From the NCBI GenBank assembly GCA_017500845.1, contig JAFVXY010000011.1, positions 1 to 42,900 on the forward strand: a stretch of DNA of 42,900 bases, given 5' to 3'. This stretch comes from Clostridia bacterium. GTDB taxonomy: Bacteria; Bacillota; Clostridia; Christensenellales; Pumilibacteraceae. Position numbers and translations under genes: made by a program. Below, in pieces: positions 1,451-34,125 of the stretch. The number at the start of each line of letters is the position of its first letter. Position 1 is the first letter of the stretch. The notes under the pieces were generated by a model. It worked only from the letters and a program-made list of their open reading frames with translations. It ran no database searches and was not told where the DNA came from.

Positions 1451-2113
1451 ATGGATATAATGGAAGCGATGAGGCTGCGCCACAGCGTTCGCAGATACGA
1501 AAATAAGGCAATCGAAGGCGAGGTGTTGGACGAGCTGAAAAGGGCAATAGACGAGTGCAATAGCGAAAGCGGACTTAATTTTCAACTTGTACTTAACGAG
1601 CCCAAGGCATTTAGCGGCGTTATGGCAAGGTACGGAAAGTTTTCGGGCGTAAGCAACTATATTGCTCTTGTGGGCAAAAAAGGCAAGGATTTGGATAGAC
1701 TATGCGGCTATTACGGTGAGAAGCTTGTTCTTAAAATTCAACAGCTTGGACTTGGCAGCTGTTGGGTGGCTCTTACTTACAAGAAGGTTCCCGAAGCGTT
1801 TACCGTACGCAATGGCGAAAAGCTGACGGTGGTTATTTCGGTCGGGTACGCAAAGGCGCGCGGCGTGCCGCATAAGTCCAAGGATATAAGCAAGGTCAGC
1901 GACGTTACGGATAGCTCGCCAAGCTGGTACAAGCAAGGCGTAGAGGCGGCTTTGCTTGCGCCTACGGCGATGAATCAACAAAAGTTCAAGTTCCGCCTGG
2001 ACGGCGAAAAGGTTACGGCATCGGCGGGTGTGGGCTTTTATGCGAAGATGGATCTCGGCATAGCGCAGTACCACTTTGAGGTAGCGTCGGGCAAAAAGGT
2101 AGATATTAAATAA
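1451..2113 (+). CDS. Nitroreductase-family protein
   Basis: A 220-residue protein that starts with the family signature RLRHSVRRYENKAI, where the serine and arginines normally contact FMN phosphate. It later has GLGSCWVAL, the typical FMN-binding segment, and LLAPTAMNQQ near the C-terminus. The halves appear arranged as in the TM1586-like, internally duplicated nitroreductase group. Members bind FMN and reduce nitro or quinone-like substrates with NAD(P)H; the substrate cannot be told from sequence. The ATG follows an AAAGGAG Shine-Dalgarno. The upstream gene ends 43 bases before. A second, shorter nitroreductase lies at 24738. Likely cytoplasmic. Confidence 0.88.
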   Translation: MDIMEAMRLRHSVRRYENKAIEGEVLDELKRAIDECNSESGLNFQLVLNEPKAFSGVMARYGKFSGVSNYIALVGKKGKDLDRLCGYYGEKLVLKIQQLGLGSCWVALTYKKVPEAFTVRNGEKLTVVISVGYAKARGVPHKSKDISKVSDVTDSSPSWYKQGVEAALLAPTAMNQQKFKFRLDGEKVTASAGVGFYAKMDLGIAQYHFEVASGKKVDIK

Positions 2114-2140
2114 AGTATTTTCGCCCAAAACCAAACTTTG

Positions 2141-2214
2141 CTTCCCCACGAGATCCCGATGCTACGCATCGCCCTACAAGTTCGACTGCGCTCAGGATGA
2201 CGCGTGTGGGAAAG
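2141..2214. repeat. Intergenic stem-loop element with TGCGCTCAGGATGAC core
   Basis: An outer near-inverted repeat (CTTCCCCACG at 2141, CGTGTGGGAAAG ending 2214) encloses a hairpin GATGC-TAC-GCATC and the core TTCGACTGCGCTCAGGATGA. From memory, this core resembles a short sequence (TTCGCTGCGCTCAGAATGAC-like) found between genes in many unrelated bacterial genomes. No ORF is seen. Probably a small dispersed repeat. Confidence 0.55.
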
Positions 2215-2226
2215 CAGGCTTCGTTT

Positions 2227-2352
2227 TTGCGCAATGGTAGTATATTTCGCCAACAATACCCGCCGCGCCCAAAATCAATCTTCGATTGTTGTAGCGCGGA
2301 ATTGGCTTGAACAGCGGATAACCTCAATCGCGCCCAAAACAAGCTTTGCTTG
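2227..2352. repeat. Dispersed intergenic repeat, copy 1
   Basis: Contains, in order, TGCGCAA, CCCGCCGCGCCCAAAATCAA, the hairpin CAATC-TTC-GATTG, GCGCGGAATTGG, and then AATCGCGCCCAAAA with the hairpin CAAG-CTTTG-CTTG. The same modules occur at 8052-8179 and, shortened, at 32316-32380. A strong promoter begins 18 bases after this copy. No coding capacity seen. Confidence 0.75.
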
Positions 2353-2370
2353 AAAAAACGCGTAATTTTG

Positions 2371-2399
2371 TTGACAAAGCGGACAAGGCGTGGTATATT
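2371..2399 (+). promoter_or_regulatory. Promoter of the FMN riboswitch / ribU transcript
   Basis: TTGACA, a 17-bp spacer ending in GGCGTGG, then TATATT. The riboswitch aptamer begins a few bases downstream, so transcription should start just before it. Confidence 0.85.
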
Positions 2400-2403
2400 A
2401 TTA

Positions 2404-2514
2404 GTGCTTAGGGGCGAGGTGTGATTCCTCACCGACGGTATAGTCCGTGAAGCCGATAAGGCCCGATTGGGTGAAATTCCCAAACCGACAGTATAGGCTG
2501 GATGATATAAGCAG
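2404..2514 (+). promoter_or_regulatory. FMN riboswitch (RFN element)
   Basis: Contains the conserved RFN segments AGGGGCGAGGTG, CCGACGGTATAGTCCGTGA, GGGTGAAATTCCCAAACCGA, CAGTATAGG and CTGGATGA. The closing helix is formed by TGCTTA at the 5' end and TAAGCA at the 3' end. FMN binding normally switches off expression of riboflavin biosynthesis or uptake genes. Here it precedes a riboflavin transporter gene. Confidence 0.95.
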
Positions 2515-2529
2515 TACACTTTTTTTGCG

Positions 2530-2551
2530 CTCCTAACAAAGGAGTTTTTTT
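2530..2551 (+). terminator. Riboswitch expression platform: terminator hairpin that contains the SD
   Basis: CTCCT, loop AACAA, AGGAG, then seven T residues, directly followed by the ATG at 2552. The right arm is also the Shine-Dalgarno (AAGGAG). The hairpin could therefore act as a weak intrinsic terminator and as a block to ribosome binding. Which mechanism operates is not resolved by sequence. Confidence 0.6.
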
Positions 2552-3610
2552 ATGTCCAAAATCTTTACCACAAAGAATATTACGAGGCTTGCGATTTTTA
2601 GTGCGTTTGCCTTTATTTTGTATATGTGGGTAAAGTTCCCGTTGCCGTTTTTGTTCCCAAGCTTTTTGGACTTTCAGGTATCCGAGCTTCCTGCCTTGCT
2701 CGCAGGGTTTATGATTGGACCGATCGGCGGATGTGTGGTAATCGTAATTAAATGCTTGCTAAAGCTGCCGTTTACCAGCACCGCGGGCGTTGGTGAGCTT
2801 GGGGATTTGCTGCTTGGAATTGCATTTGTGCTTGTGTCATCGCTAATTTACCGCAAGCACCGAAGTAAAAAGGGCGCGGTAATAAGCCTTATTTGCGGCT
2901 CACTTGCTTGTACGGCGGTGTCCGTTGTGGTCAACGCCTTTATACTTATTCCGTTTTACGCAGAGGCATTCGGAATGTCGGCAATCGTGGGAATGCTCAG
3001 CTCGTTATTCCCGACGGTAACCGAGGACACGATTATGCTATACTATTTGCCCTTATCGGTATTGCCGTTCAATCTTTTGAGATGCACTCTTAGTAGCGTA
3101 ATAACGTTTTTGGTATATAAGCGTTTGCAAAGATTGTTGGACAGAATTTTCGAGCCGCAACAAAAACACTTGTCTTTTGAGAACGAAAAGTGTATAATAG
3201 ACAGTATGGAAACGCAATCAGAACAACAGACCGAGCAGCAGGGCTTTTTGCTTGGCGAAAGGCTTGTGGGCGGCGAAATTATTTTGCTTAGTGGCGATTT
3301 GGGCGCGGGAAAAACCGTTTTTACACGAGGTGTTGCCGCGGCGCTTGGTATTACAGACAGCATAGTAAGCCCCACATTTACTCTTATGAACTGCTATGAG
3401 GGCAGGCTGAAGCTGTACCATTACGACGCGTATAGATTAGACAGCGCCGAGCAAGCGGAGGAGCGAGGACTTACCGAGTTTTTTGGCGCAAGTGACGGTG
3501 TTTGCATAATAGAGTGGCCCGAAAAAATCGCGGAAGCTATTCCCGAGGACGTAATTCGCGTTACCATAAAGTATATAGATGAGCAAAAGAGGGAGATTAC
3601 AATATGCTGA
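2552..3610 (+). CDS. ribU: RibU riboflavin ECF transporter S component fused in frame to TsaE
   Basis: One uninterrupted 352-codon frame with two domains. Residues 1-205 have about six hydrophobic segments and resemble RibU, the substrate-binding subunit of the ECF-type riboflavin importer (early LPFLFPSFLDFQVSELPALL segment). Residues 206-218 are a hydrophilic linker. Residues 219-352 are a complete TsaE, with Walker A GDLGAGKT and SPTFTLMN. RibU normally ends around residue 200, so its stop appears to be missing. A consensus promoter inside the linker (3170-3198) and an ATG at 3206 could give TsaE on its own. The upstream FMN riboswitch supports the RibU call. The fusion may be real, a recent stop-codon loss, or a sequence error. 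Confidence 0.85.
   Translation: MSKIFTTKNITRLAIFSAFAFILYMWVKFPLPFLFPSFLDFQVSELPALLAGFMIGPIGGCVVIVIKCLLKLPFTSTAGVGELGDLLLGIAFVLVSSLIYRKHRSKKGAVISLICGSLACTAVSVVVNAFILIPFYAEAFGMSAIVGMLSSLFPTVTEDTIMLYYLPLSVLPFNLLRCTLSSVITFLVYKRLQRLLDRIFEPQQKHLSFENEKCIIDSMETQSEQQTEQQGFLLGERLVGGEIILLSGDLGAGKTVFTRGVAAALGITDSIVSPTFTLMNCYEGRLKLYHYDAYRLDSAEQAEERGLTEFFGASDGVCIIEWPEKIAEAIPEDVIRVTIKYIDEQKREITIC
3170..3198 (+). promoter_or_regulatory. Internal promoter for tsaE
   Basis: TTGTCT, exactly 17 bp, then TATAAT, followed by seven bases and the ATG at 3206. It lies in the linker between the RibU and TsaE domains. The predicted start of transcription falls at or within two bases of the ATG, and there is no Shine-Dalgarno. 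Confidence 0.7.
3206..3610 (+). CDS. tsaE: TsaE, tRNA t6A synthesis ATPase (internal start in the fused frame)
   Basis: A 134-residue product if translation starts at the ATG at 3206, close to the normal TsaE length (about 135-155). TsaE is the ATPase that works with TsaB, TsaD and TsaC in making N6-threonylcarbamoyladenosine at position 37 of tRNAs reading ANN codons. Visible motifs are Walker A GDLGAGKT (residues 30-37), SPTFTLMN, YHYDAYRL and IIEWPEK. The same residues are the C-terminal half of the ribU frame. Its own promoter lies just upstream without a Shine-Dalgarno, suggesting leaderless translation. Genes for YhbY, TsaB and RimI follow in an overlapping series; tsaD is not in the window. 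Confidence 0.85.
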   Translation: METQSEQQTEQQGFLLGERLVGGEIILLSGDLGAGKTVFTRGVAAALGITDSIVSPTFTLMNCYEGRLKLYHYDAYRLDSAEQAEERGLTEFFGASDGVCIIEWPEKIAEAIPEDVIRVTIKYIDEQKREITIC

Positions 3611-3897
3611 CAAGCAAGCAAAGAGCAAAGCTTAGAGGACTGGCGAACAATATCGAGCCGGTATTTCAAATAGGAAAGGGCAACCTTAGCGACGTTCAGA
3701 TAGATGAAATCGCGGCGGTGCTTAATAAGCGCGAGCTGATTAAGGTGTCCGTGCTTAAGGGCTGTGATTATACGGCAAGCGAGCTTATCGGCGAGCTTAG
3801 CAACCTTCTCGGCGCAGAGCCGGTAGCCGCAATTGGCAACCGAATGATTATCTATCGCCGCAGTGACGATAAAAGCGTAAACCATATTGAGATATGA
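3604..3897 (+). CDS. yhbY: YhbY-type CRM-domain RNA-binding protein
   Basis: A 97-residue protein covering a single CRS1/YhbY (CRM) domain: LTSKQRAKLRGLA at the N-terminus, the QIGKGNLSD loop (usually IGKxG) and IGNRMIIYR at the end. Members bind the large ribosomal subunit and take part in its assembly. The ATG overlaps the end of tsaE by seven bases, so the two are translationally coupled. The next gene, tsaB, overlaps by four bases. Finding yhbY between tsaE and tsaB is a small departure from the usual tsaE-tsaB order. Confidence 0.92.
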   Translation: MLTSKQRAKLRGLANNIEPVFQIGKGNLSDVQIDEIAAVLNKRELIKVSVLKGCDYTASELIGELSNLLGAEPVAAIGNRMIIYRRSDDKSVNHIEI

Positions 3898-4496
3898 GAT
3901 ACGTTGCGATAAATACGGCGGCGCCGATAATTGAAATTGTCGCCGTTTATGACGGCAAATCCGAGTACACAAGGCTCGAAAAGGTTATGGCGGCAGAACA
4001 GCTTTTGCCTCAGCTTGACAAAATGTTGGACGGTATGGGATTGACTGCATCTGACTTTGACAGTTTTGTATGCGTGGTGGGTCCCGGTTCGTTTACGGGA
4101 ATACGTATCGGCATAAACACCGTTCGTGCGCTTGCTTACGCACTTGGCAAAATGGCTTACGGAGTAACGTATGACCGAATTATGGCATACAATAATAGCG
4201 GCGCGGTTGTTACCTTTATTGACGGCGGAACGGGAGTTTGCTACGTGGCGGCATACGAGGGCGAAAAGGAAATTCTTACCCCTACCTGCATTTACAAAAA
4301 GAACGCCTACGAGTTTTTGGAAAAATTCTCGGGAGCAAAAATTGTTGCCGATTTTGATTTGACCGTAGCAAGTCGTTTCGAGCCTAGTCAAAAGGCGCTT
4401 ATGGGCGCGGCGGAGTATGCGATACAAAATCAGCTTGGCACGGACGCAGTCTATATTCGCAAGCCGCAACCCGACCGCAAGGAAAACGATATATGA
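3894..4496 (+). CDS. tsaB: TsaB, tRNA threonylcarbamoyladenosine synthesis protein
   Basis: A 200-residue protein of the ASKHA fold. The start, MRYVAINTAAPIIEIVAV, matches the LxIDTS beginning of the family, and GPGSFTGIRIGINTVRALA is the diagnostic TsaB motif. TsaB is the scaffold that binds TsaD and TsaE in the t6A complex. The C-terminal half is shorter and less typical than in E. coli TsaB (about 230 residues), as is common in Bacillota. The ATG overlaps the yhbY stop by four bases and its own stop overlaps rimI by four bases. Confidence 0.93.
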   Translation: MRYVAINTAAPIIEIVAVYDGKSEYTRLEKVMAAEQLLPQLDKMLDGMGLTASDFDSFVCVVGPGSFTGIRIGINTVRALAYALGKMAYGVTYDRIMAYNNSGAVVTFIDGGTGVCYVAAYEGEKEILTPTCIYKKNAYEFLEKFSGAKIVADFDLTVASRFEPSQKALMGAAEYAIQNQLGTDAVYIRKPQPDRKENDI

Positions 4497-4921
4497 TAAT
4501 ACAGCGTTGGTGTCTGTCGGACGTAAAGCAGATTGCCGAGATGGAGCAGCGATACATTTATCATCCTTACAGCGAGGCGGTGCTTAGCGAAATGCTTAAC
4601 AATCCAAGCTGTCTTGCGCTTAAAATTATGGACGGCGACGTGCTTGCGGCATACGTTAGCGGCGAGTTCGTTATTGACGAGTTCAATATTAACAACGTGG
4701 TGGTGGGTGAGGATTACCGCCGCAGAGGGTACGCCCAAGCACTTATCAGCGAGGTTATTGATAGGTGTAAGCAGGGCGGCGTACAAAAGATTTATCTCGA
4801 GGTCGCTCAAAACAACGAGGCGGCAAAGAATCTTTATTACAAATTAGACTTCTCTTTTTCATACGAAAGAAAAAAATATTACGGCGAACAAAGCGCATTG
4901 GTATTGGTTAAGACGGTGTAA
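4493..4921 (+). CDS. rimI: RimI, ribosomal protein S18-alanine N-acetyltransferase
   Basis: A 142-residue GNAT-fold acetyltransferase. The acetyl-CoA-binding signature VVVGEDYRRRGYAQALI is present (the R/QxxGxG/A loop), followed by LEVAQNNEAAKNLYYKLDF, the typical RimI C-terminal motif with catalytic-region asparagine and tyrosine. Position directly after tsaB, with an ATGA overlap, fits the conserved tsaB-rimI pairing and supports this assignment over a general GNAT enzyme. RimI acetylates the N-terminal alanine of ribosomal protein S18. It is the last gene of the overlapping series; a 29-base gap separates it from the next gene. Confidence 0.9.
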   Translation: MIIQRWCLSDVKQIAEMEQRYIYHPYSEAVLSEMLNNPSCLALKIMDGDVLAAYVSGEFVIDEFNINNVVVGEDYRRRGYAQALISEVIDRCKQGGVQKIYLEVAQNNEAAKNLYYKLDFSFSYERKKYYGEQSALVLVKTV

Positions 4922-4950
4922 GCCAGCTTTCACCGTCAAAAGGAGCGTAA

Positions 4951-5688
4951 ATGTTTTTCTCGTATGACGGAGTAAGTGTTTTTTACAAAAGACATTTGGG
5001 GCTGGGCACGCCCGTCGTGCTTATGCACGGCTGGGGTGGCAGTAGCGTTTCCTTTAGGGGCGTGTTCGAGTATCTGTCTACGCTTAATCGTGACGTCATC
5101 GTGGTCGATTTTCCCGGCTTTGGCAGTAGTGATTTGCCGGGAGAGAACTGGGGCATTGACGACTACGCCCTGTGTATCGAGGCGCTTATACGAGCCTTGA
5201 AGCTACGCAAGGTTACGCTTGTGGGACACAGCTTTGGGGGCAGAGTGGCTCTTTGCCTTGGGAATAAGGATTACGTTCAAAGTCTCGCATTAGTGGATAG
5301 CGCGGGAATGAAGCCGCGCAAAAGCCTTGCTAAGGCTTACATGGTTTGGCGGTACAAAATGGCAAAAAAAGCGGGCAAGGACGTATCTAAATACGGCTCG
5401 GTGGACTACCTTGCCTTGCCGGAGATTATGCGAAAGGTGTTCGTGAGAATTGTCAATACGCATCTTGAGGATAGGCTGGCGGCAATCACTTGCCCCACGC
5501 TTATAATTTGGGGAAACAAGGACGCCGATACGCCGATATATATGGCAAAAAGGCTTGTAAGAGGAATAAAGGACAGTAGCCTAGTGATGCTCAGCGGCAG
5601 TCACTATGCATATATCGAGAACAATATTAAATTCAATTTAATTCTTGCCGAGTTTACAAAGGGGGACAAAGAATGCCTACCGAGATAG
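4951..5688 (+). CDS. Alpha/beta-hydrolase
   Basis: A 245-residue alpha/beta-hydrolase. HGWGGSS near residue 26 forms the oxyanion-hole loop. The nucleophile elbow GHSFGG lies near residue 92, the acid is the Asp in WGNKDADTP (about 190) and the catalytic His is in GSHYAY (about 217), so the triad is complete. The substrate cannot be told. Its 3' end overlaps the start of the membrane-anchored MurF-like ligase by 16 bases. A hydrolase beside such a ligase hints at a cell-wall or envelope role, but this is inference. An AAAGGAG ribosome-binding site precedes the ATG. Confidence 0.9.
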   Translation: MFFSYDGVSVFYKRHLGLGTPVVLMHGWGGSSVSFRGVFEYLSTLNRDVIVVDFPGFGSSDLPGENWGIDDYALCIEALIRALKLRKVTLVGHSFGGRVALCLGNKDYVQSLALVDSAGMKPRKSLAKAYMVWRYKMAKKAGKDVSKYGSVDYLALPEIMRKVFVRIVNTHLEDRLAAITCPTLIIWGNKDADTPIYMAKRLVRGIKDSSLVMLSGSHYAYIENNIKFNLILAEFTKGDKECLPR

Positions 5689-8249: not shown

Positions 8250-11200
8250 TTAGTCTTCGAACTCGTTGATGGGTTCGTCGTTAGATTTTTCTACCTTTGT
8301 GATAGCAGGTGCTTCTTGTTCAGCGACCTTTTCCTCGATTACAACATCAGGGGTGTTGTCGTCGTCAAAGTCGTTGAACTTTTCGATATCAGGATTGATT
8401 TCCTTTACGGGCTCAGCAACGATTGTATCCTCGTCGTAGAGGTCGATATCCTCTTGGGGATTTTCTACAAGACCAAGACGGCGATCGTACGAGCTGAGGT
8501 TGTGCTTGTGCTTACGGCGGGAAGCCTTACCTGCAAGGGTACGGATAACAATGCCGATGATTGCAATAAGGATTGCAACGCCCAAGAGGATAGAGGGGAT
8601 AACCCACCATTTTTCGCTATCCGATACGGGAGCGGTTTCTTCTTCGGGAGTGGTTTCCTCTTCGCTTTCAATGGTTTCGCTTGCATCGATAATTCTAAGA
8701 GTATCGGATTCTATTAAGCCTTCCTCGCTGGAGCCAAGATTTACAAGGCTGATATTAGCGATATAAAGGTCGCCGGTAACGTATCTGTTGGGATAAGCGA
8801 TATTGCCGAGTGCCGCACGGAGATAAACGGTGGTTGCCTCGTTGGAGGTTGCTACGTAGAATTGGTAGTCTCTGAATTCATAACCGTATACAAGGCTTTG
8901 AGTAGACTTAAGCTTTTCGAACTTAGCTGCTTCGTAGGTTTCATTGCCGCTAAGGTACAAGCTCGCGCCGTACTCGTTGTCGGTTGCGGTAACGCCGTCC
9001 TTCATAATTACAGCCATCGAAACAGTAATCATATAATAGGAATTAGCTTCGAGCTTAAGGGGGTTAACAAGCTGAGCGGTAAGCGCAGTGTTGCGAGCCT
9101 GCAAGGTATATACCAAGTCTGCCTTAAATTCAAGGCTATTGTAAGCCTCTGTGATTTCGGCGGGGATATATGCGTTGTCGTTGTTATTGGTCTTATTATT
9201 GGGGTCGAATACGCCTGCCTCGTACTGAGATTCGTCGGATGCGGACTCGGTAACGCTCCAGCTTGTCGAAGCCTTAATAGCGTTGGTGTCGCTGTTATCA
9301 TAGCCGAAGAAATCAAGCGAGGAGAAGGAGTACATATCGTACTTGATGCCGGTGGTGCGTTCGCTCTTGAACTGCTCGTACTTAGTTGCAAATGCGCCTT
9401 CATCCAAGTTTTGGAAAGCCGCTTCTAATACGAAGATGCTACCGGTTGCTTTTTGCTTAGCGTTACCCAAGGTGATATTGAGGGTAGTGGTATAATCAAT
9501 ACCGGTGCCATCGGTAAGAGCAACGTCGCCTTGCAAGTAGAACTCGTAGGTTTCGAAGTCAGCGGTAGAGCCAATGTTCTTTACAGCGGCAACGGTCTTG
9601 CCGTTTACTTCAAGCCAAATGTTTGCGCCTGCGCCGGTCATGCCAATGGTGCGCATAGTAACGCTCACCTTGTAGTCGCTACCGTTTGTAAGAGAAATGG
9701 ACGGCGAAGCGTATCCAAAGTATGAGTTGTTTTCGGAAGCAAGCAAAAGCATGCTGGGATACGAGGTAGAGTTGTATTTTACGTTTTTATTAGACGAAAC
9801 GGGGTTAGCCACGTTAAGGTAAGTGCTAATATTAGCGTTATAATGCTCCTCGTTGGTAAGAACAACACCGCTTACGCTATCGTTGTCGGTATTGCCAACC
9901 GTGTTCCACTCTGCCGGAGTAAGGGGATATTCGTTGTCAAAGTTTTCCGCATCGTAGAATCTGCCGTTGGTCATCGAGGTGGCAGGAGCGTTCTCGAAGG
10001 TAACGATCGTACCAAGCGAATTATTGGCATTGTAATTTGCGTAGGTGATTTCCTCAAGGGTGATTTGGTCAAAAAGAGCAACGCCGGTGCAAAGCTCCTC
10101 GTAGCCGAGCCACAACTGAAGGTTAATGGCGCAGTCCTTAGAAAGCGAGCCGCGAATATAGAAGTGATACTTAGCCCAGCCGTAGCGAGTGTTTATATCG
10201 TCGCTGCCGATTGCATCGTTGATAACAACGGGCGAAAGCTCATTGTTGCTTGCGGGAATATTGCTCTCGCCAACGATAACGAGCGAAGCGTTGCCGTCGT
10301 CACCAAAGCCCTGAGCCTTTGCCCAAACGCTAAGGCGATAGAACTTGTTGCGCTCGATAACGATTTCGTCGGACTCAACGCCGATTTTTGCTTCGCTTTT
10401 TGCAACGAGTGCCAACACATTGCTTTCGGCATGGGTGCCGTTGGGAGTGTAGGGCTCTTCAATAATGCCCTCGATGTTTTCGTCGTCAAACGCCTTGCTT
10501 GCATCGTAAACGTCTACGTAATAAGCGGTACCGGTGGTGCCTTCCTCGTCGATAATTTCCCAACCGTTCATGCCGCCCTCAAACGAGCCCATTTCTACAC
10601 CGTCACGCGAGGTAAGTGAGGTAATGCTCTTTACGCCTACGGATTTGCCGAGGTCGGTGTTAAAGTCGCAAACCATCACGTTGCCCGAGTTGCTCGCTTC
10701 ATGAGCGTAAGCATTTGCCGAAAGCTTGGTGCAGGTAATATTGTCGAAGAATGCGTAACCGCTGGATGGGTGGATGTGCTCGATATAAGAATCGCCATCG
10801 TCGATAGTGCCGTAGGTGTAGCAGTCACCAACCTGAAGGTTAAGCTTAACCGAAGCGCTGTTTTCTGCGGTAGCAACAAAGATTACGTATTCGGTAAAGC
10901 CGTACGTAGCATTGTTAATTTCTTCGCTGTTGTCGATATTCCAAAATCCAATATCGTAGTCAAGACCGCTAATTTTGATAACCGCACCGGTATCCTGTAC
11001 GAAATCGCCCGTCTTAGCCCAAACCGAGAACTTATAATAGCTGTAAGCATCAAGCTCGATATCCTCCGAGCTGTAGCCGTAAGCGGTACCGCGCTTAGAG
11101 TCGGTATCGTTGGTGTTTATCATAAGGGCCTTGGAGTTGGTGCCGGGGAAGTAAAGGTTGCCGTTGGGGTTGTTGGTGTTGCGGCCAAACGGAGTGGTGG

Positions 11201-11543
11201 GCTTGGCATCAGCAAACTCGCTGTAAGCGTCAAGCTTGGTTTCTTCCATAAAATCGGTATACGATACGCCCGAATCGGTGCTAAGGTCCACTACACCCGA
11301 AATTGCCTCGCCTGCAAAGTCGCCGATATACGACGGCTCCCAGCTGTTGAGAGTCTTGAGAATAATCGAGCCCGAAGCGTCAAACTGATTCTCGCTGATC
11401 TCTACTTTTTCGTAGTCAGTCGGAGTGTCTGCATTTACTACTCTTGCGGCAGAAAATCCAAGACACGGTAACAAGCAAGCAAACGCCAAAACGGCGCAAG
11501 CAAGCCAAGTCAAACTTTTTTTGATTTTACTCATGTTTTTCAT
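8250..11543 (-). CDS. Large membrane-anchored surface protein with repeated beta-sandwich-like modules
   Basis: A 1097-residue exported protein. A signal peptide covers about the first 38 residues (lysines, then a hydrophobic core, then a cut near VVNADT). Four modules of about 220 residues follow, each with a similar strand pattern: YYKFSVWAKTGDF (about 168), FYRLSVWAKAQGF (400), DYKVSVTMRTIGM (621) and SYYMITVSMAVIM (833). They look like carbohydrate-binding-module-type jelly rolls. A transmembrane helix starting at WWVIPSILLG (about 977-1001) and an acidic cytoplasmic tail of about 95 residues end the protein; there is no LPXTG motif. No catalytic domain is recognised. AAGGTG precedes the ATG and a consensus promoter lies at 11614-11642. 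Confidence 0.85.
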   Translation of the reverse strand: MKNMSKIKKSLTWLACAVLAFACLLPCLGFSAARVVNADTPTDYEKVEISENQFDASGSIILKTLNSWEPSYIGDFAGEAISGVVDLSTDSGVSYTDFMEETKLDAYSEFADAKPTTPFGRNTNNPNGNLYFPGTNSKALMINTNDTDSKRGTAYGYSSEDIELDAYSYYKFSVWAKTGDFVQDTGAVIKISGLDYDIGFWNIDNSEEINNATYGFTEYVIFVATAENSASVKLNLQVGDCYTYGTIDDGDSYIEHIHPSSGYAFFDNITCTKLSANAYAHEASNSGNVMVCDFNTDLGKSVGVKSITSLTSRDGVEMGSFEGGMNGWEIIDEEGTTGTAYYVDVYDASKAFDDENIEGIIEEPYTPNGTHAESNVLALVAKSEAKIGVESDEIVIERNKFYRLSVWAKAQGFGDDGNASLVIVGESNIPASNNELSPVVINDAIGSDDINTRYGWAKYHFYIRGSLSKDCAINLQLWLGYEELCTGVALFDQITLEEITYANYNANNSLGTIVTFENAPATSMTNGRFYDAENFDNEYPLTPAEWNTVGNTDNDSVSGVVLTNEEHYNANISTYLNVANPVSSNKNVKYNSTSYPSMLLLASENNSYFGYASPSISLTNGSDYKVSVTMRTIGMTGAGANIWLEVNGKTVAAVKNIGSTADFETYEFYLQGDVALTDGTGIDYTTTLNITLGNAKQKATGSIFVLEAAFQNLDEGAFATKYEQFKSERTTGIKYDMYSFSSLDFFGYDNSDTNAIKASTSWSVTESASDESQYEAGVFDPNNKTNNNDNAYIPAEITEAYNSLEFKADLVYTLQARNTALTAQLVNPLKLEANSYYMITVSMAVIMKDGVTATDNEYGASLYLSGNETYEAAKFEKLKSTQSLVYGYEFRDYQFYVATSNEATTVYLRAALGNIAYPNRYVTGDLYIANISLVNLGSSEEGLIESDTLRIIDASETIESEEETTPEEETAPVSDSEKWWVIPSILLGVAILIAIIGIVIRTLAGKASRRKHKHNLSSYDRRLGLVENPQEDIDLYDEDTIVAEPVKEINPDIEKFNDFDDDNTPDVVIEEKVAEQEAPAITKVEKSNDEPINEFED

Positions 11544-12512: not shown

Positions 12513-13261
12513 AAAAAATTGTTTTGTTTATTTTTACGGTTGCTTTTGCGATTGCCTTGCTTGCTTGCGACAATCCCGAAGCAATCAAAAACGAGGGGAC
12601 GGCATACGGAATTACTGACGGGGCTTGTCCTATTAAGGTAACGATGACGGTGGACGGCGACGGCAAAATTCTGGAAGCGCAAATCTACGAGTATTTGTCC
12701 GTTTACGATATGGGCGCGCTTGAAGGTGACGGGCAAGCATATTATAGCTACGGCGTTCAAATAGACAACGCTGTGGATGGCTATGCAAAGATAGTTCGTG
12801 TGGGCGATAAAATTTTTGAGTACACTGGCGGAACGTATTTTTGCAATCAGCTTGACGGCGAGGATAAAAGCTTTGATGGCTACGTAAGCACGGCAATCGG
12901 CGGCGAGTGGTATATAAGCTGTGTAAACGAGGGCGACTTTGATATCGTAAGGGAGGACGGTAGCGACTACGGAGTGCCGTTTGACGAGTACGACGGCTGT
13001 GGACTAAAAAAGAGCGAGTGGGCGGATAAGCTAAAAAACGGCTGGCACGACGGCAAAAATTACGATAGCAGCTATAAGGAAAATATTTACAAAATAAGCA
13101 CACATTTGCGCAACCACGGCTTTTACGGATATGACGGCACCGATAATTTAAGCAGTGAGGGTACCCACAAGGTGGGTAAATACGATACGCTCGTGGATAT
13201 GCCAAATTTTCACGACTATATGAAAATTGCTCAAAAAGCGTATAACGCTGCCTCAAAATAA
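12509..13261 (+). CDS. Lipoprotein of unknown function, weakly FMN_bind-like
   Basis: A 250-residue protein with a lipoprotein signal peptide: KK at the start, a hydrophobic core and the lipobox LLAC (Cys20). The mature part is acidic and rich in Asp, Gly and Tyr. The segment from about residue 30 (GTAYGITDGACPIKVTM, then DGKILEAQIY) has the strand pattern of FMN_bind-type domains, but I cannot confirm the FMN-attachment threonine, so this is only a guess. It is the last gene of the overlapping series with the two TauE/SafE halves and is followed by a terminator. Confidence 0.78.
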   Translation: MKKIVLFIFTVAFAIALLACDNPEAIKNEGTAYGITDGACPIKVTMTVDGDGKILEAQIYEYLSVYDMGALEGDGQAYYSYGVQIDNAVDGYAKIVRVGDKIFEYTGGTYFCNQLDGEDKSFDGYVSTAIGGEWYISCVNEGDFDIVREDGSDYGVPFDEYDGCGLKKSEWADKLKNGWHDGKNYDSSYKENIYKISTHLRNHGFYGYDGTDNLSSEGTHKVGKYDTLVDMPNFHDYMKIAQKAYNAASK

Positions 13262-13334
13262 TGCAAAATCCCTCATAATTCGTATACGCAAAAAATGTAC
13301 GAGGGACAAAATAAGTTCTATATGCGAGCATAAG

Positions 13335-13367
13335 CTCATACTCTAAAACGACGAGTATGAGTTTTTT
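13335..13367 (+). terminator. Terminator of the TauE/SafE-lipoprotein operon
   Basis: Perfect 9-bp stem CTCATACTC / GAGTATGAG with a nine-base loop, followed by six T residues. Confidence 0.85.
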
Positions 13368-13465
13368 GCTTTTGCGGAGCAGATATGCGACACAAAAGAA
13401 CAAGGCTCGTCAAAAAGCTTAGATAAAATCAAATTTATATATGCTAATATAGAGGTGCAAAAAAA

Positions 13466-14233
13466 GTGAAATTCTTAGTTGTAAAAAGGTCAGTCGTGCT
13501 AAAATGCCTGATTGCAAGCCTTGTTGTGGTAGCGTTGACGCTAACGTGCTACTTTACGGGCAGTGCGGCGGTGTGGCAAAACAAGACGCCCAAAAAGCTT
13601 CCTATTTACTGCGTGAAAACCGAGGAGAAGGTGGTGGCGCTCTCGTTTGATGCGGCTTGGGGCGCAGATAAAACGCTTGGTATTCTCGACGTGCTAACGC
13701 AGTACGATATCAAGGCGAACTTTTTTGCGGTGGGCTTTTGGGTAGAGAAACACGGCGACGTTCTAAAAACACTTCACGATAGCGGTAGAATGGAAATCGG
13801 CACGCACAGCAACACGCATCCGTATATGTCCAAGCTCGATCGCGACAACGTAAGAGCAGAGCTGGAAACCTCGATGCAGCTTATACAAAACGTAACGGGC
13901 GTTACGCCGCAGCTTTTTCGTGCCCCGTACGGCGACTACGACGACACGCTGCTTACCGAGGCGGAAAAGCTCGGACTTTATACCATACAATGGGACGTAG
14001 ACAGCCTTGACTGGAAGGACTTGTCCGCACACGATATTGCAAGCAGAATACTAAAAAACGTCAAAAACGGTAGCATAGTTCTGATGCACAACGACGGTAA
14101 GCATACGCTGGAGGCGTTGCCGCTTATAATCGAGGGGCTAAAGAACAAGGGGTATACCTTTAAGACGGTAGGCGAAATGATATACAAGGATAATTACACC
14201 ATCTCTCACGATGGTACGCAGATAAGGAGTTAA
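13466..14233 (+). CDS. pdaB: Polysaccharide deacetylase, PdaB-like
   Basis: A 255-residue membrane-anchored NodB-type deacetylase. One hydrophobic segment (about 10-32) anchors it outside the membrane. Catalytic motifs are SFDAAWG (about 58), THSNTHP (112), RAPYGDY (151), WDVDSLDWK and IVLMHND. The AAWG form of motif 1 and the length match PdaB, a sporulation-linked deacetylase in Bacillus, but similar enzymes act on vegetative peptidoglycan. Only one of the two acidic residues usual in motif 1 (DD) is present, as in PdaB. The start is a GTG preceded by AGAGGTG eight bases upstream. The SSB-like gene follows by seven bases. Confidence 0.88.
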   Translation: MKFLVVKRSVVLKCLIASLVVVALTLTCYFTGSAAVWQNKTPKKLPIYCVKTEEKVVALSFDAAWGADKTLGILDVLTQYDIKANFFAVGFWVEKHGDVLKTLHDSGRMEIGTHSNTHPYMSKLDRDNVRAELETSMQLIQNVTGVTPQLFRAPYGDYDDTLLTEAEKLGLYTIQWDVDSLDWKDLSAHDIASRILKNVKNGSIVLMHNDGKHTLEALPLIIEGLKNKGYTFKTVGEMIYKDNYTISHDGTQIRS

Positions 14234-14240
14234 TATACTT

Positions 14241-14867
14241 ATGAACGTAGAAATCAAAACAAGCAACAAGGTTTTTCTTTCGGGTACGGTGTCTTCGCAG
14301 CCAAGATTCAGTCACGAGCTGTACGGAGAGGGCTTTTACGAGTTTATACTCGAGGTTCCTCGGCTTTCCGAGCAAAAGGACTATATACCTGTGACCATTT
14401 CGGAGCGACTTATGGGAAGTGACCTTGCCGAGGGGCAAAAGCTTTCGTTTTACGGCCAGTTTCGCAGCTTCAACAAGCTGGTCGGGGACAAAAGCAAGCT
14501 TATGCTTACCGTGTTCGTGCGTGACTTCGCACAAGACGAGGAGGTTGGTAATCCCAACGTGGCCGAGCTTACCGGGTATGTATGCAAAGCGCCTATGTAC
14601 CGCACAACACCGTTTAATCGAGAAATTTGCGACGTGCTGCTTGCCGTCAATCGTGCTTACGACAAGTCGGACTATATTCCGTGCATTGCGTGGGGCAGAA
14701 ACGCGCGCTTTGTAAAGGAAATAGCTGTAGGTCAAAAGCTGTCGGTAAGCGGAAGAATACAGTCGCGCGAGTATAACAAAAGGCTGGATAGCGGCGAGAT
14801 GGAAACTCGCACTGCCTACGAGCTTTCTATAAACAAAATATTTATGGAAGAAGACGCACGGGAGTAA
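14241..14867 (+). CDS. Tandem OB-fold single-stranded-DNA-binding protein-like
   Basis: A 208-residue protein made of two OB-like halves. The first starts NKVFLSGTVSSQPRFSHE (residues 9-26) and the second NVAELTGYVCKAP (about 106), followed by YIPCIAWGRNARFV and LSVSGRIQSREYNKR, which is strongly SSB-like. The usual acidic C-terminal tip (DDDIPF-type) is missing; it ends EEDARE. It is therefore unlikely to be the main replication SSB and may be a paralogue. An AAGGAG site precedes the ATG by 11 bases. It is adjacent to the deacetylase but has no evident functional link with it. Confidence 0.8.
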   Translation: MNVEIKTSNKVFLSGTVSSQPRFSHELYGEGFYEFILEVPRLSEQKDYIPVTISERLMGSDLAEGQKLSFYGQFRSFNKLVGDKSKLMLTVFVRDFAQDEEVGNPNVAELTGYVCKAPMYRTTPFNREICDVLLAVNRAYDKSDYIPCIAWGRNARFVKEIAVGQKLSVSGRIQSREYNKRLDSGEMETRTAYELSINKIFMEEDARE

Positions 14868-14912
14868 GATATAACACATTTGTTATCAAGTCGGGATCTC
14901 AAATCCTGCAAC

Positions 14913-33183: not shown

Positions 33184-34125
33184 ATGAAGTTTATCGAGCT
33201 AAAAAAGCATTTATCGCAACAAAAGGATGCGTGTTATTTGCTAAGCGGTGACGACCCGTTTGTGCTGTCTAGCGCAATCAAAGCCTTCGAGGCGATAGTG
33301 GAGTTGCCCGAGATGAACCTCATACGGCTCGAAAGTCCCACGGCGGCAGATATAGTGAACGCCGCACTCGTCTTTCCTATGATGAGCCCCTTTAGGCTGA
33401 TAGTGGTGGAGAAGTTCGAAAAGGACGCAGAGGAGCTAAAAAAGTATCTTTTGTCGCCGTCAGAAACAACGGTTATCGTAATTGTAAGTCCGACTGTAAC
33501 AAAAAATCTTAGCGGCATACCTGCGCTTACGGTGGTGGACTGCTCGCGACTTGACGGTAGCGTTATACTGTCGTATATAGCAAGAGAGTGTAATAGTGGC
33601 GGCGTAAATATTTCGCAACCTGCCGCACAGCTACTGATTGACAGCTGCAATCGTTTTATGTCGCGAATTTCGGTAGAACTCAAAAAGCTTATCGCATACA
33701 AAAAAAGTGGCGTTATAAGCAGCGAGGACGTAGCAAAGCTAGTGAATGCCGACCCCGAATACAAGGTGTTCGAGCTTGGCGACTGCTTGGCAAGCGGAAA
33801 GGGCGAGCGTGCGCTTACCATTCTTGACGATATGCTCGGCGGCGGCTCGGTAGCAGGTGTGTTTGGAATTATCTACAAGCATTTTCGGCAGCTACTTTAC
33901 GTTGCGGTGACACAAAATGACGATGACGTAAGGCGAAATTTGGGCGTAAACGAGTACGCGCTAAAAAGAATCAGGGCGCAAGCAAAGGGCTTTTCGCCCA
34001 AGCAGCTAAAAAGCATTTGTGACCGTCTGCACAAGGTGGACAGCGATTATAAGTCGGGACTAATCAGCGACAAGCTGGCAATCACGACGTTTGCTTTGCA
34101 AGTAGTAAATGAAGGAAGGAAATGA
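33184..34125 (+). CDS. holA: DNA polymerase III subunit delta
   Basis: A 313-residue clamp-loader subunit. The N-terminal part YLLSGDDPFVLSSAI is the degenerate Walker-region start typical of HolA (YLLxGxDxFLxxxA). The middle has EFExx-like FELGDCLASGKGERALTILDDML, the characteristic HolA motif, and the C-terminus has YKSGLISDKLAITTFALQV. Delta opens the beta sliding clamp and loads it on DNA at primers. Length is slightly shorter than typical (about 330-345). It is preceded by an apparently leaderless promoter and overlaps the next gene by four bases. Confidence 0.93.
   Translation: MKFIELKKHLSQQKDACYLLSGDDPFVLSSAIKAFEAIVELPEMNLIRLESPTAADIVNAALVFPMMSPFRLIVVEKFEKDAEELKKYLLSPSETTVIVIVSPTVTKNLSGIPALTVVDCSRLDGSVILSYIARECNSGGVNISQPAAQLLIDSCNRFMSRISVELKKLIAYKKSGVISSEDVAKLVNADPEYKVFELGDCLASGKGERALTILDDMLGGGSVAGVFGIIYKHFRQLLYVAVTQNDDDVRRNLGVNEYALKRIRAQAKGFSPKQLKSICDRLHKVDSDYKSGLISDKLAITTFALQVVNEGRK

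Follow-up and report, generated by a model that had tools for sequence, protein, structure and literature searches.

A RibU-type transporter gene fused in frame to tsaE, with a conserved promoter motif nested at the join

The closest described counterparts of the locus reported here are the riboflavin transporter subunit RibU and the tRNA-modification ATPase TsaE. RibU proteins encoded with an FMN riboswitch (3p5n, 5kbw; PMC4418817) resemble the protein studied here in family, fold and riboswitch, and also, as far as the available text goes, in that no riboflavin synthesis was detected. Unlike those proteins as they are described there, the present one continues past its last helix, in one frame, into a TsaE domain; neither "fused" nor "fusion" occurs as a word in the main text of that paper. 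TsaE binds TsaD-TsaB and leaves after ATP hydrolysis, according to the available parts of PMC9654439. The TsaE proteins YjeE and YdiB (6n9a, 5np9; PMC9654439) share with the present one their family, fold and motifs, its standing as the sole copy above the cut-off, and its position near tsaB, whereas here TsaE is also encoded at the C-terminal end of a membrane protein, an arrangement that differs from those set out in these parts of the paper. A membrane domain of the S-component fold followed by a C-terminal soluble domain is likewise found in the 5TMR receptors (PMC11109136, in excerpt), but those carry kinase or other signalling domains, whereas the soluble part of the present RibU-type transporter subunit is a tRNA-modification ATPase.

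Leaderless genes of the TA-led type have a TANNNT motif about 12 bp upstream of the start codon and no Shine-Dalgarno sequence, and the accessible sections of PMC3160421 report leaderless genes in 56 of 209 Firmicutes genomes, with a concentration in the Lactobacillales and in Mycoplasma. The tsaE start described below is similar to TA-led genes, as presented in those sections, in its -10 geometry and in having no Shine-Dalgarno sequence; it differs in that promoter and start codon are nested within the coding sequence of the upstream gene, to which tsaE is fused in frame. In the open-licence literature searched, to the extent that its texts were available, no mention was found of a RibU-TsaE fusion, of its recurrence or of the nested promoter, and no paper in that literature contained ribU and tsaE as words together.

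The window (the whole 42,900-nucleotide stretch of DNA that was analysed, from an uncultured Clostridia bacterium) contains the fused gene and its parts as follows.

2552..3610, plus strand: ribU-tsaE fused open reading frame, 352 amino acids plus stop, zero internal stops
2552..3151, plus strand: RibU-type ECF S-component half (residues 1-200), from Pfam, PDB, AlphaFold2 (AF2) and Foldseek
3152..3205, plus strand: linker (residues 201-218), which contains the nested promoter and is of low confidence in the AF2 model
3206..3610, plus strand: TsaE half (t6A ATPase), from Pfam, TIGR00150, PDB matches and motifs

Residues 8-189 match the Pfam ECF_trnsprt model (PF12822) at 94.9 bits against a cut-off of 30.7, and residues 222-349 match the Pfam TsaE model (PF02367) at 131 bits against 26.6, over model positions 2-128 of 128. 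The TsaE half also matches TIGR00150 at 121.8 bits (cut-off 60.1). The original prediction, made from the letters of this DNA, that RibU and TsaE share one stop-free frame is therefore confirmed, with both domains above curated cut-offs in the frame at 2552..3610. The riboflavin-specific Pfam model PF07155 gave no match to the fusion protein up to an E-value of 0.001. At E-values of 0.01 or less the RibU half matches just three distinct PDB sequences, 3p5n (E 1.8e-24), 5kc0 and 5kbw, and the PDB sequences matched by the TsaE half are TsaE proteins (5np9, 5mvr, 6n9a and others). Motifs that can be read in this half are GDLGAGKT, which we take to be the Walker A motif, SPTFTL, HYDAYRL and IIEWPEK.

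The AlphaFold2 model of the fusion (mean pLDDT 83.7, pTM 0.56) consists of two mostly confident domains. Its final RibU helix ends at residue 200 and its first TsaE strand begins at 217, and pLDDT falls below 50 at the join (residues 202-209 and 211-215) and also at residues 32-35. Foldseek matched the two halves separately to RibU and TsaE; for the RibU half, TmRibU (5kbw) was found with a TMt of 0.89, and RibU entries outranked other S-components. Family, nearest structures and the FMN riboswitch thus point to a RibU-type first half with predicted riboflavin transport, and curated models together with the partners tsaB and TsaD identify the second half as a TsaE with predicted ATPase and t6A activity. 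Both halves are ordinary members of known families; what appears to be new, as far as the literature searched goes, is their combination, its recurrence and the nested promoter.

Three genes follow the fusion downstream.

3604..3897, plus strand: yhbY-like gene (CRS1_YhbY) that overlaps the end of tsaE; PF01985 at 84.4 bits, above its cut-off of 27, and TIGR00253 at 67.9, below its cut-off of 78.5
3894..4496, plus strand: tsaB, partner of TsaE in the t6A complex; TIGR03725 at 88.5 bits (cut-off 69.3)
4493..4921, plus strand: rimI-like acetyltransferase; TIGR01575 at 85.8, just below its cut-off of 86.4, and PF00583 at 61.5, above its cut-off of 20.7

TsaD is present on contig C17 of the same genome, and no second TsaE above the Pfam cut-off was found in this genome, which is 75% complete in 22 contigs. 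None of 16 genomes examined, among them the present one, contained DHBP synthase, which served as the marker of riboflavin synthesis and was detected in 14 of 14 control genomes; all 16 have a protein of the EcfT family. With no DHBP synthase, and with RibU and EcfT present, the host of this 75% complete genome looks like a riboflavin auxotroph that relies on uptake.

Upstream of the fused frame lie three further elements.

2371..2399, plus strand: predicted sigma-70-type promoter of the ribU-tsaE mRNA, TTGACA-17-TATATT with TG before the second hexamer, from a promoter scan
2401..2517, plus strand: FMN riboswitch aptamer RF00050, 97.7 bits against a gathering cut-off of 66.2, E 1.6e-21
2529..2545, plus strand: short hairpin CTCCT/AGGAG followed by a T run, covering the putative ribU Shine-Dalgarno sequence, from scan and sequence

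The predicted position of the fusion behind an FMN riboswitch is upheld by the RF00050 match. The promoter at 2371-2399 agrees with the consensus at 11 of 12 positions and is the top site in 2100-5000, a region in which the scan returned 6 sites against 3.6 +/- 2.0 in shuffles and is, taken by itself, weak evidence. The hairpin at 2529-2545, possibly a terminator or sequestor arm of the riboswitch, belongs to a set of 6 terminator-like sites, where shuffles gave 4.2 +/- 1.9; the folding energy of 2401-2560 (z -0.99) lends no support to a hairpin or riboswitch leader.

To place the fusion among its relatives, we compared the genomes of its genus, g1 (G000-G007), with those of wider groups. The frame is open through the join in 8 of 8 g1 genomes, among them G007, which is cut inside ribU by a contig edge, and G005, a separate assembly that is 98% identical. 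A sample of 396 genomes from the order contains at least 38 with a single uninterrupted stop-free match over both halves. The DNA was read in 100 chosen genomes, of which 62 are fused and 38 were counted as separate; these genomes are a non-random choice, picked on full-length or neighbouring matches or on a readable TsaE frame, and the fractions are not order-wide rates. The fused or separate state was taken from this reading of the DNA, and match-based frame lengths join frames across stops in G018 and G017. The 100 are what remained of 102 tabulated genomes after G008, whose stretch of DNA contains no TsaE, and G194, in which the Walker pattern was not detected, had been excluded. Loci of G013, G027, G103 and G252 without TsaE in the stretch were left untabulated, as were G450, G508, G566, G599, G610, G720 and G770 from outside the order. 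G439, in which a contig end cuts ribU and the frame is open, was set as fused by hand, and G412, with a linker masked by N, is counted among the 38 separate and may well be fused.

The 62 fusions occur in six families of the order: 34 in f3, 23 in f1 (genera g1, g4, g8 and g18), two in f10 and one each in f15, f21 and f25. In many other relatives the two genes are separate, with tsaE next after ribU. A TsaE match above the cut-off is present in 70 of 74 f1 genomes and 39 of 43 f3 genomes, in two partial pieces in each of G432 and G019 and once in the others. In a sample of 391 genomes from the class, the only stop-free full-length cases among the matches listed are G000, G038 and G077, all from this order; outside the order, ribU and tsaE adjoin as separate genes, for example in G450, G566 and G770. 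The sample from the phylum (398 genomes) was searched at a strict E-value of 1e-38, at which distant fusions would be missed. Quick trees of the single halves, with G412 omitted, require at least 8 changes between fused and separate states for the TsaE half and at least 12 for the RibU half, compared with means of 30.4 and 30.1 (minima 26) in 50 label shuffles on the same trees, whose forks are weak and do not distinguish gain from loss. Such a difference, 8 to 12 changes against about 30, indicates that fusions arose or were undone several times amid a ribU-tsaE neighbourhood, and suggests that RibU-TsaE fusions arose several times among these relatives. A concatenated tree (10 state changes, with G412 as separate) was set aside because RibU halves have seemingly been exchanged in some genomes.

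At the join itself, two further elements lie within the coding sequence.

3170..3198, plus strand: nested sigma-70-type promoter of tsaE, TTGTCT (3170-3175), a 17-nt spacer and TATAAT (3193-3198), conserved in g1
3206..3208, plus strand: internal in-frame ATG, Met219, the predicted first codon of a leaderless tsaE mRNA, from conservation in g1

The TATAAT begins 13 nt and ends 7 nt before the ATG at 3206, and its translation gives the linker residues Cys-Ile. All eight g1 genomes have a TTG hexamer and TATAAT or TATACT 17 nt apart; this -10 site, TGTATAAT or TGTATACT, is 17 nt past the TTG hexamer, and the start codon, ATG in four genomes and GTG in the other four, comes 7 nt after it. No Shine-Dalgarno-like 4-mer occurs at -18 to -4 of the internal start in any of the eight. 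For a wider comparison, a promoter was called where a -10 with at least 5 of 6 matches lies 6-8 nt before a start codon, and the best-scoring pair of start and promoter was taken for each gene. By this rule a promoter precedes tsaE in 8 of 8 g1 fusions, 10 of 11 g8 fusions and 21 of the 38 genes counted as unfused; the g8 exception, G439, has TATAAT 9 nt before ATG (18 of 19 kept in g1 and g8 together). The same rule and search found none in the 43 other fusions, 34 of which belong to family f3. Of the 39 promoter sites, the spacing is 17 nt in 35, and the -35 is of the TTG type in 36.

Many of the unfused genes have the layout TTGnnn-17-TATAAT-6/7 nt-ATG, without a Shine-Dalgarno sequence. 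Those that bear the promoter come from families f1, f3, f15, f17, f20 and f25, and the rule found no promoter in any of the five unfused cases from f2, f4, f18 and f24. All 18 fused tsaE genes with the promoter, and 19 of the 21 unfused ones, lack a Shine-Dalgarno-like 4-mer. As a looser control on the same DNA, 96 of 4328 other ATGs have such a -10 at gaps of 6-8. The leaderless-type motif is not unique to tsaE, since in a loose search 8 of 36 accepted frames of the window have some candidate. In the promoterless fusions, codons 26-39 before the Walker motif contain no ATG in 40 of 43 and no ATG, GTG or TTG in 20 of 43.

In g1, silent sites near the promoter are more conserved than those elsewhere in the gene, in regions that were picked after the motif had been seen. 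Third positions of codons -39 to -30 vary at 4 of 10 sites against 145 of 165 elsewhere in six g1 genomes (without G000 and G005; p 0.00086); with all eight included, 6 of 10 vary against 148 of 165 (p 0.02). Where the amino acid is conserved, codons are identical in 8 of 8 genomes at 3 of 3 positions within codons -41 to -32 and at 7 of 72 elsewhere (p 0.0018). The least-varying windows of 10 codons in g1 have their first codon at -50 to -47 or at -42; the constraint thus reaches upstream of the -35 element, and other causes may apply. A conserved promoter and start codon without a Shine-Dalgarno sequence make it likely that free TsaE is produced from a leaderless mRNA of its own.

Among other fused loci, an FMN riboswitch was found at 34 of the 39 searched: at all 15 from g1 and g8, and at 19 of the 24 that lack the nested promoter; none was detected within about 0.7-1.4 kb upstream in G010, G045, G283, G424 and G428. 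FMN control is therefore usual for the fusion and not essential to it. Two sets of related loci had the riboswitch in 18 of 20 and 17 of 20 cases. The fusions of genus g18 (G428 at L178, G424 at L179 and G283 at L180) have neither the nested promoter nor an FMN riboswitch in about 0.7-0.8 kb upstream, and most TsaE frames listed for this genus are short. Some f3 fusions (L042, L046, L048 and L050) have long, acidic, low-complexity tails after TsaE.

The g1 linker has one fixed, gap-free length, and keeping of the frame is there inseparable from keeping of the promoter; 10 of 13 residues vary among the eight genomes and 4 of 13 among six. In g8, the distance from the last ribU helix to TATAAT takes six different lengths in 11 fused genomes, all of them in frame with TsaE. 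TsaE was not seen in 2 of the 14 g8 genomes, and 11 of the 12 that have it are fused. The twelfth, G436, has a ribU stop shortly after TATAAT and tsaE in another, overlapping frame (L185). As G436 is unfused and the first branch among g8 in the quick tree, the fusion is either dispensable there or came after G436 split off.

A different kind of change was found in G182 and G224 (family f3, genus g78). Their RibU half (about nt 576-1205 of L149 in G182) is 26-29% identical to that of the sister species G284, G158 and G111, compared with 66-88% for the TsaE half, and DNA identity to a sister changes near the linker. In G182 the first half continues to match RibU structures and the second the TsaE model. 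Most simply, these genomes would have acquired a RibU half from a distant source, linked in frame to the TsaE half that was already there, as would be expected if TsaE in these genomes depends on read-through from ribU. Between G182 (L149) and G224 (L148) themselves, the RibU halves are 100% identical (212 aa) and the TsaE halves 86%.

We consider it probable that the locus is an evolved ribU-tsaE fusion with two overlapping outputs, one tethered and one free TsaE. Transcription from the 2371 promoter, under control of the FMN riboswitch, would yield an mRNA for a single chain of 352 residues. S-components have a cytoplasmic C-terminus, and such a chain, if stable, would place RibU in the membrane and TsaE in the cytoplasm on a flexible linker. 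The linker promoter would give a leaderless mRNA that begins at or beside the ATG at 3206 and yields free TsaE, and this mRNA probably continues through yhbY, tsaB and the rimI-like gene irrespective of FMN. Since unfused relatives also have it before tsaE, the nested promoter probably predates the fusion, and the ribU frame may later have grown across it into tsaE. Other lineages would then have lost both this promoter and the internal start, leaving TsaE to be made only as a fusion. The tether is compatible with the TsaE cycle, since TsaD-TsaB can come to TsaE, and the existence of promoterless fusions implies that tethered TsaE works. Counting against two outputs is the report, in the sections of PMC3160421 available, that leaderless genes occur in 56 of 209 Firmicutes genomes, mainly in Lactobacillales and Mycoplasma.

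The fusion in g1 could instead be a neutral run-on, in which the ribU stop was lost and the fused chain is not selected, while the leaderless mRNA supplies working TsaE and the extra tail of RibU is harmless ballast or is cut off. This reading is consistent with the nested promoter being kept in g1 and present in unfused relatives as well, with the single length of the g1 linker, and with the unfused state of G436 within g8. Still, we regard it as rather unlikely, because the six lengths of the g8 join are all in frame across 11 fused genomes and 11 of 12 TsaE-bearing g8 genomes are fused, because 43 promoterless fusions mean that tethered TsaE evidently can do the job, and because G182 and G224 have a distant RibU half in frame with a TsaE half of the resident type. 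That the internal promoter is unused and all TsaE is tethered to RibU under FMN control would agree with the one TsaE above the cut-off in the genome, and promoterless fusions elsewhere indicate that such a state can exist; it is nevertheless quite improbable here, given that all eight g1 genomes preserve the promoter with its spacing, the start codon and the silent sites, and that the same promoter stands before unfused tsaE, 19 of 21 times without a Shine-Dalgarno-like 4-mer. A stop hidden by an assembly or base-calling error might be suspected in a genome that is 75% complete and in 22 contigs. The original prediction proposed close relatives as the check for a stop between the domains; none has one in 8 of 8 g1 genomes, the separate 98%-identical assembly included, and with a gap-free linker such an error is hardly conceivable and was rejected.

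With two outputs as the preferred reading, TsaE in this organism is most likely neither wholly membrane-bound nor wholly FMN-controlled. The original prediction that it would be tied to the membrane and placed under FMN control is thus not supported here in that form, as the linker has a promoter with a start codon 7 nt on in 8 of 8 genomes, and is a better fit for the 43 promoterless fusions (34 in f3). In those, TsaE appears to be made solely in fusion with RibU, in most cases downstream of an FMN riboswitch.

We know of no pathway shared by a vitamin uptake subunit and a tRNA-modification ATPase. Fusions of TsaE to other partners are known. Flavin supply and t6A may be functionally linked, although this is unproven. 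Tentatively, and with considerable doubt, we suggest that the fusion couples the two in riboflavin auxotrophs: TsaD-TsaB would be brought to the membrane or the ECF transporter, the amount of tethered TsaE would be set by FMN through the riboswitch, and genera with the nested promoter would keep a flavin-independent free TsaE, while most of f3 would have the tethered, flavin-controlled form alone. The lineages without the promoter, in which the t6A enzyme appears only as part of a membrane transporter and mostly behind an FMN riboswitch, make a link between flavin and translation testable. More generally, the three states found (separate genes, fusion with nested promoter and start, and fusion without them) suggest a route to an obligatory gene fusion, and they are a warning that a "fused" bacterial frame may still yield a separate protein.

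Elsewhere in the window, a -10-like box (5 of 6) lies 7 nt before an ATG at 33184 and may belong to a further leaderless gene. Frames of 1097, 256 and 239 aa on the minus strand (8253-11543, 12636-13403 and 14163-14879) have no Pfam match up to an E-value of 0.001, and the two shorter ones may have arisen by chance. Positions 547-1407 on the plus strand, which precede a nitroreductase-type gene, encode a membrane protein that matches TMEM164 (PF14808) at 40.7 bits against a cut-off of 25.
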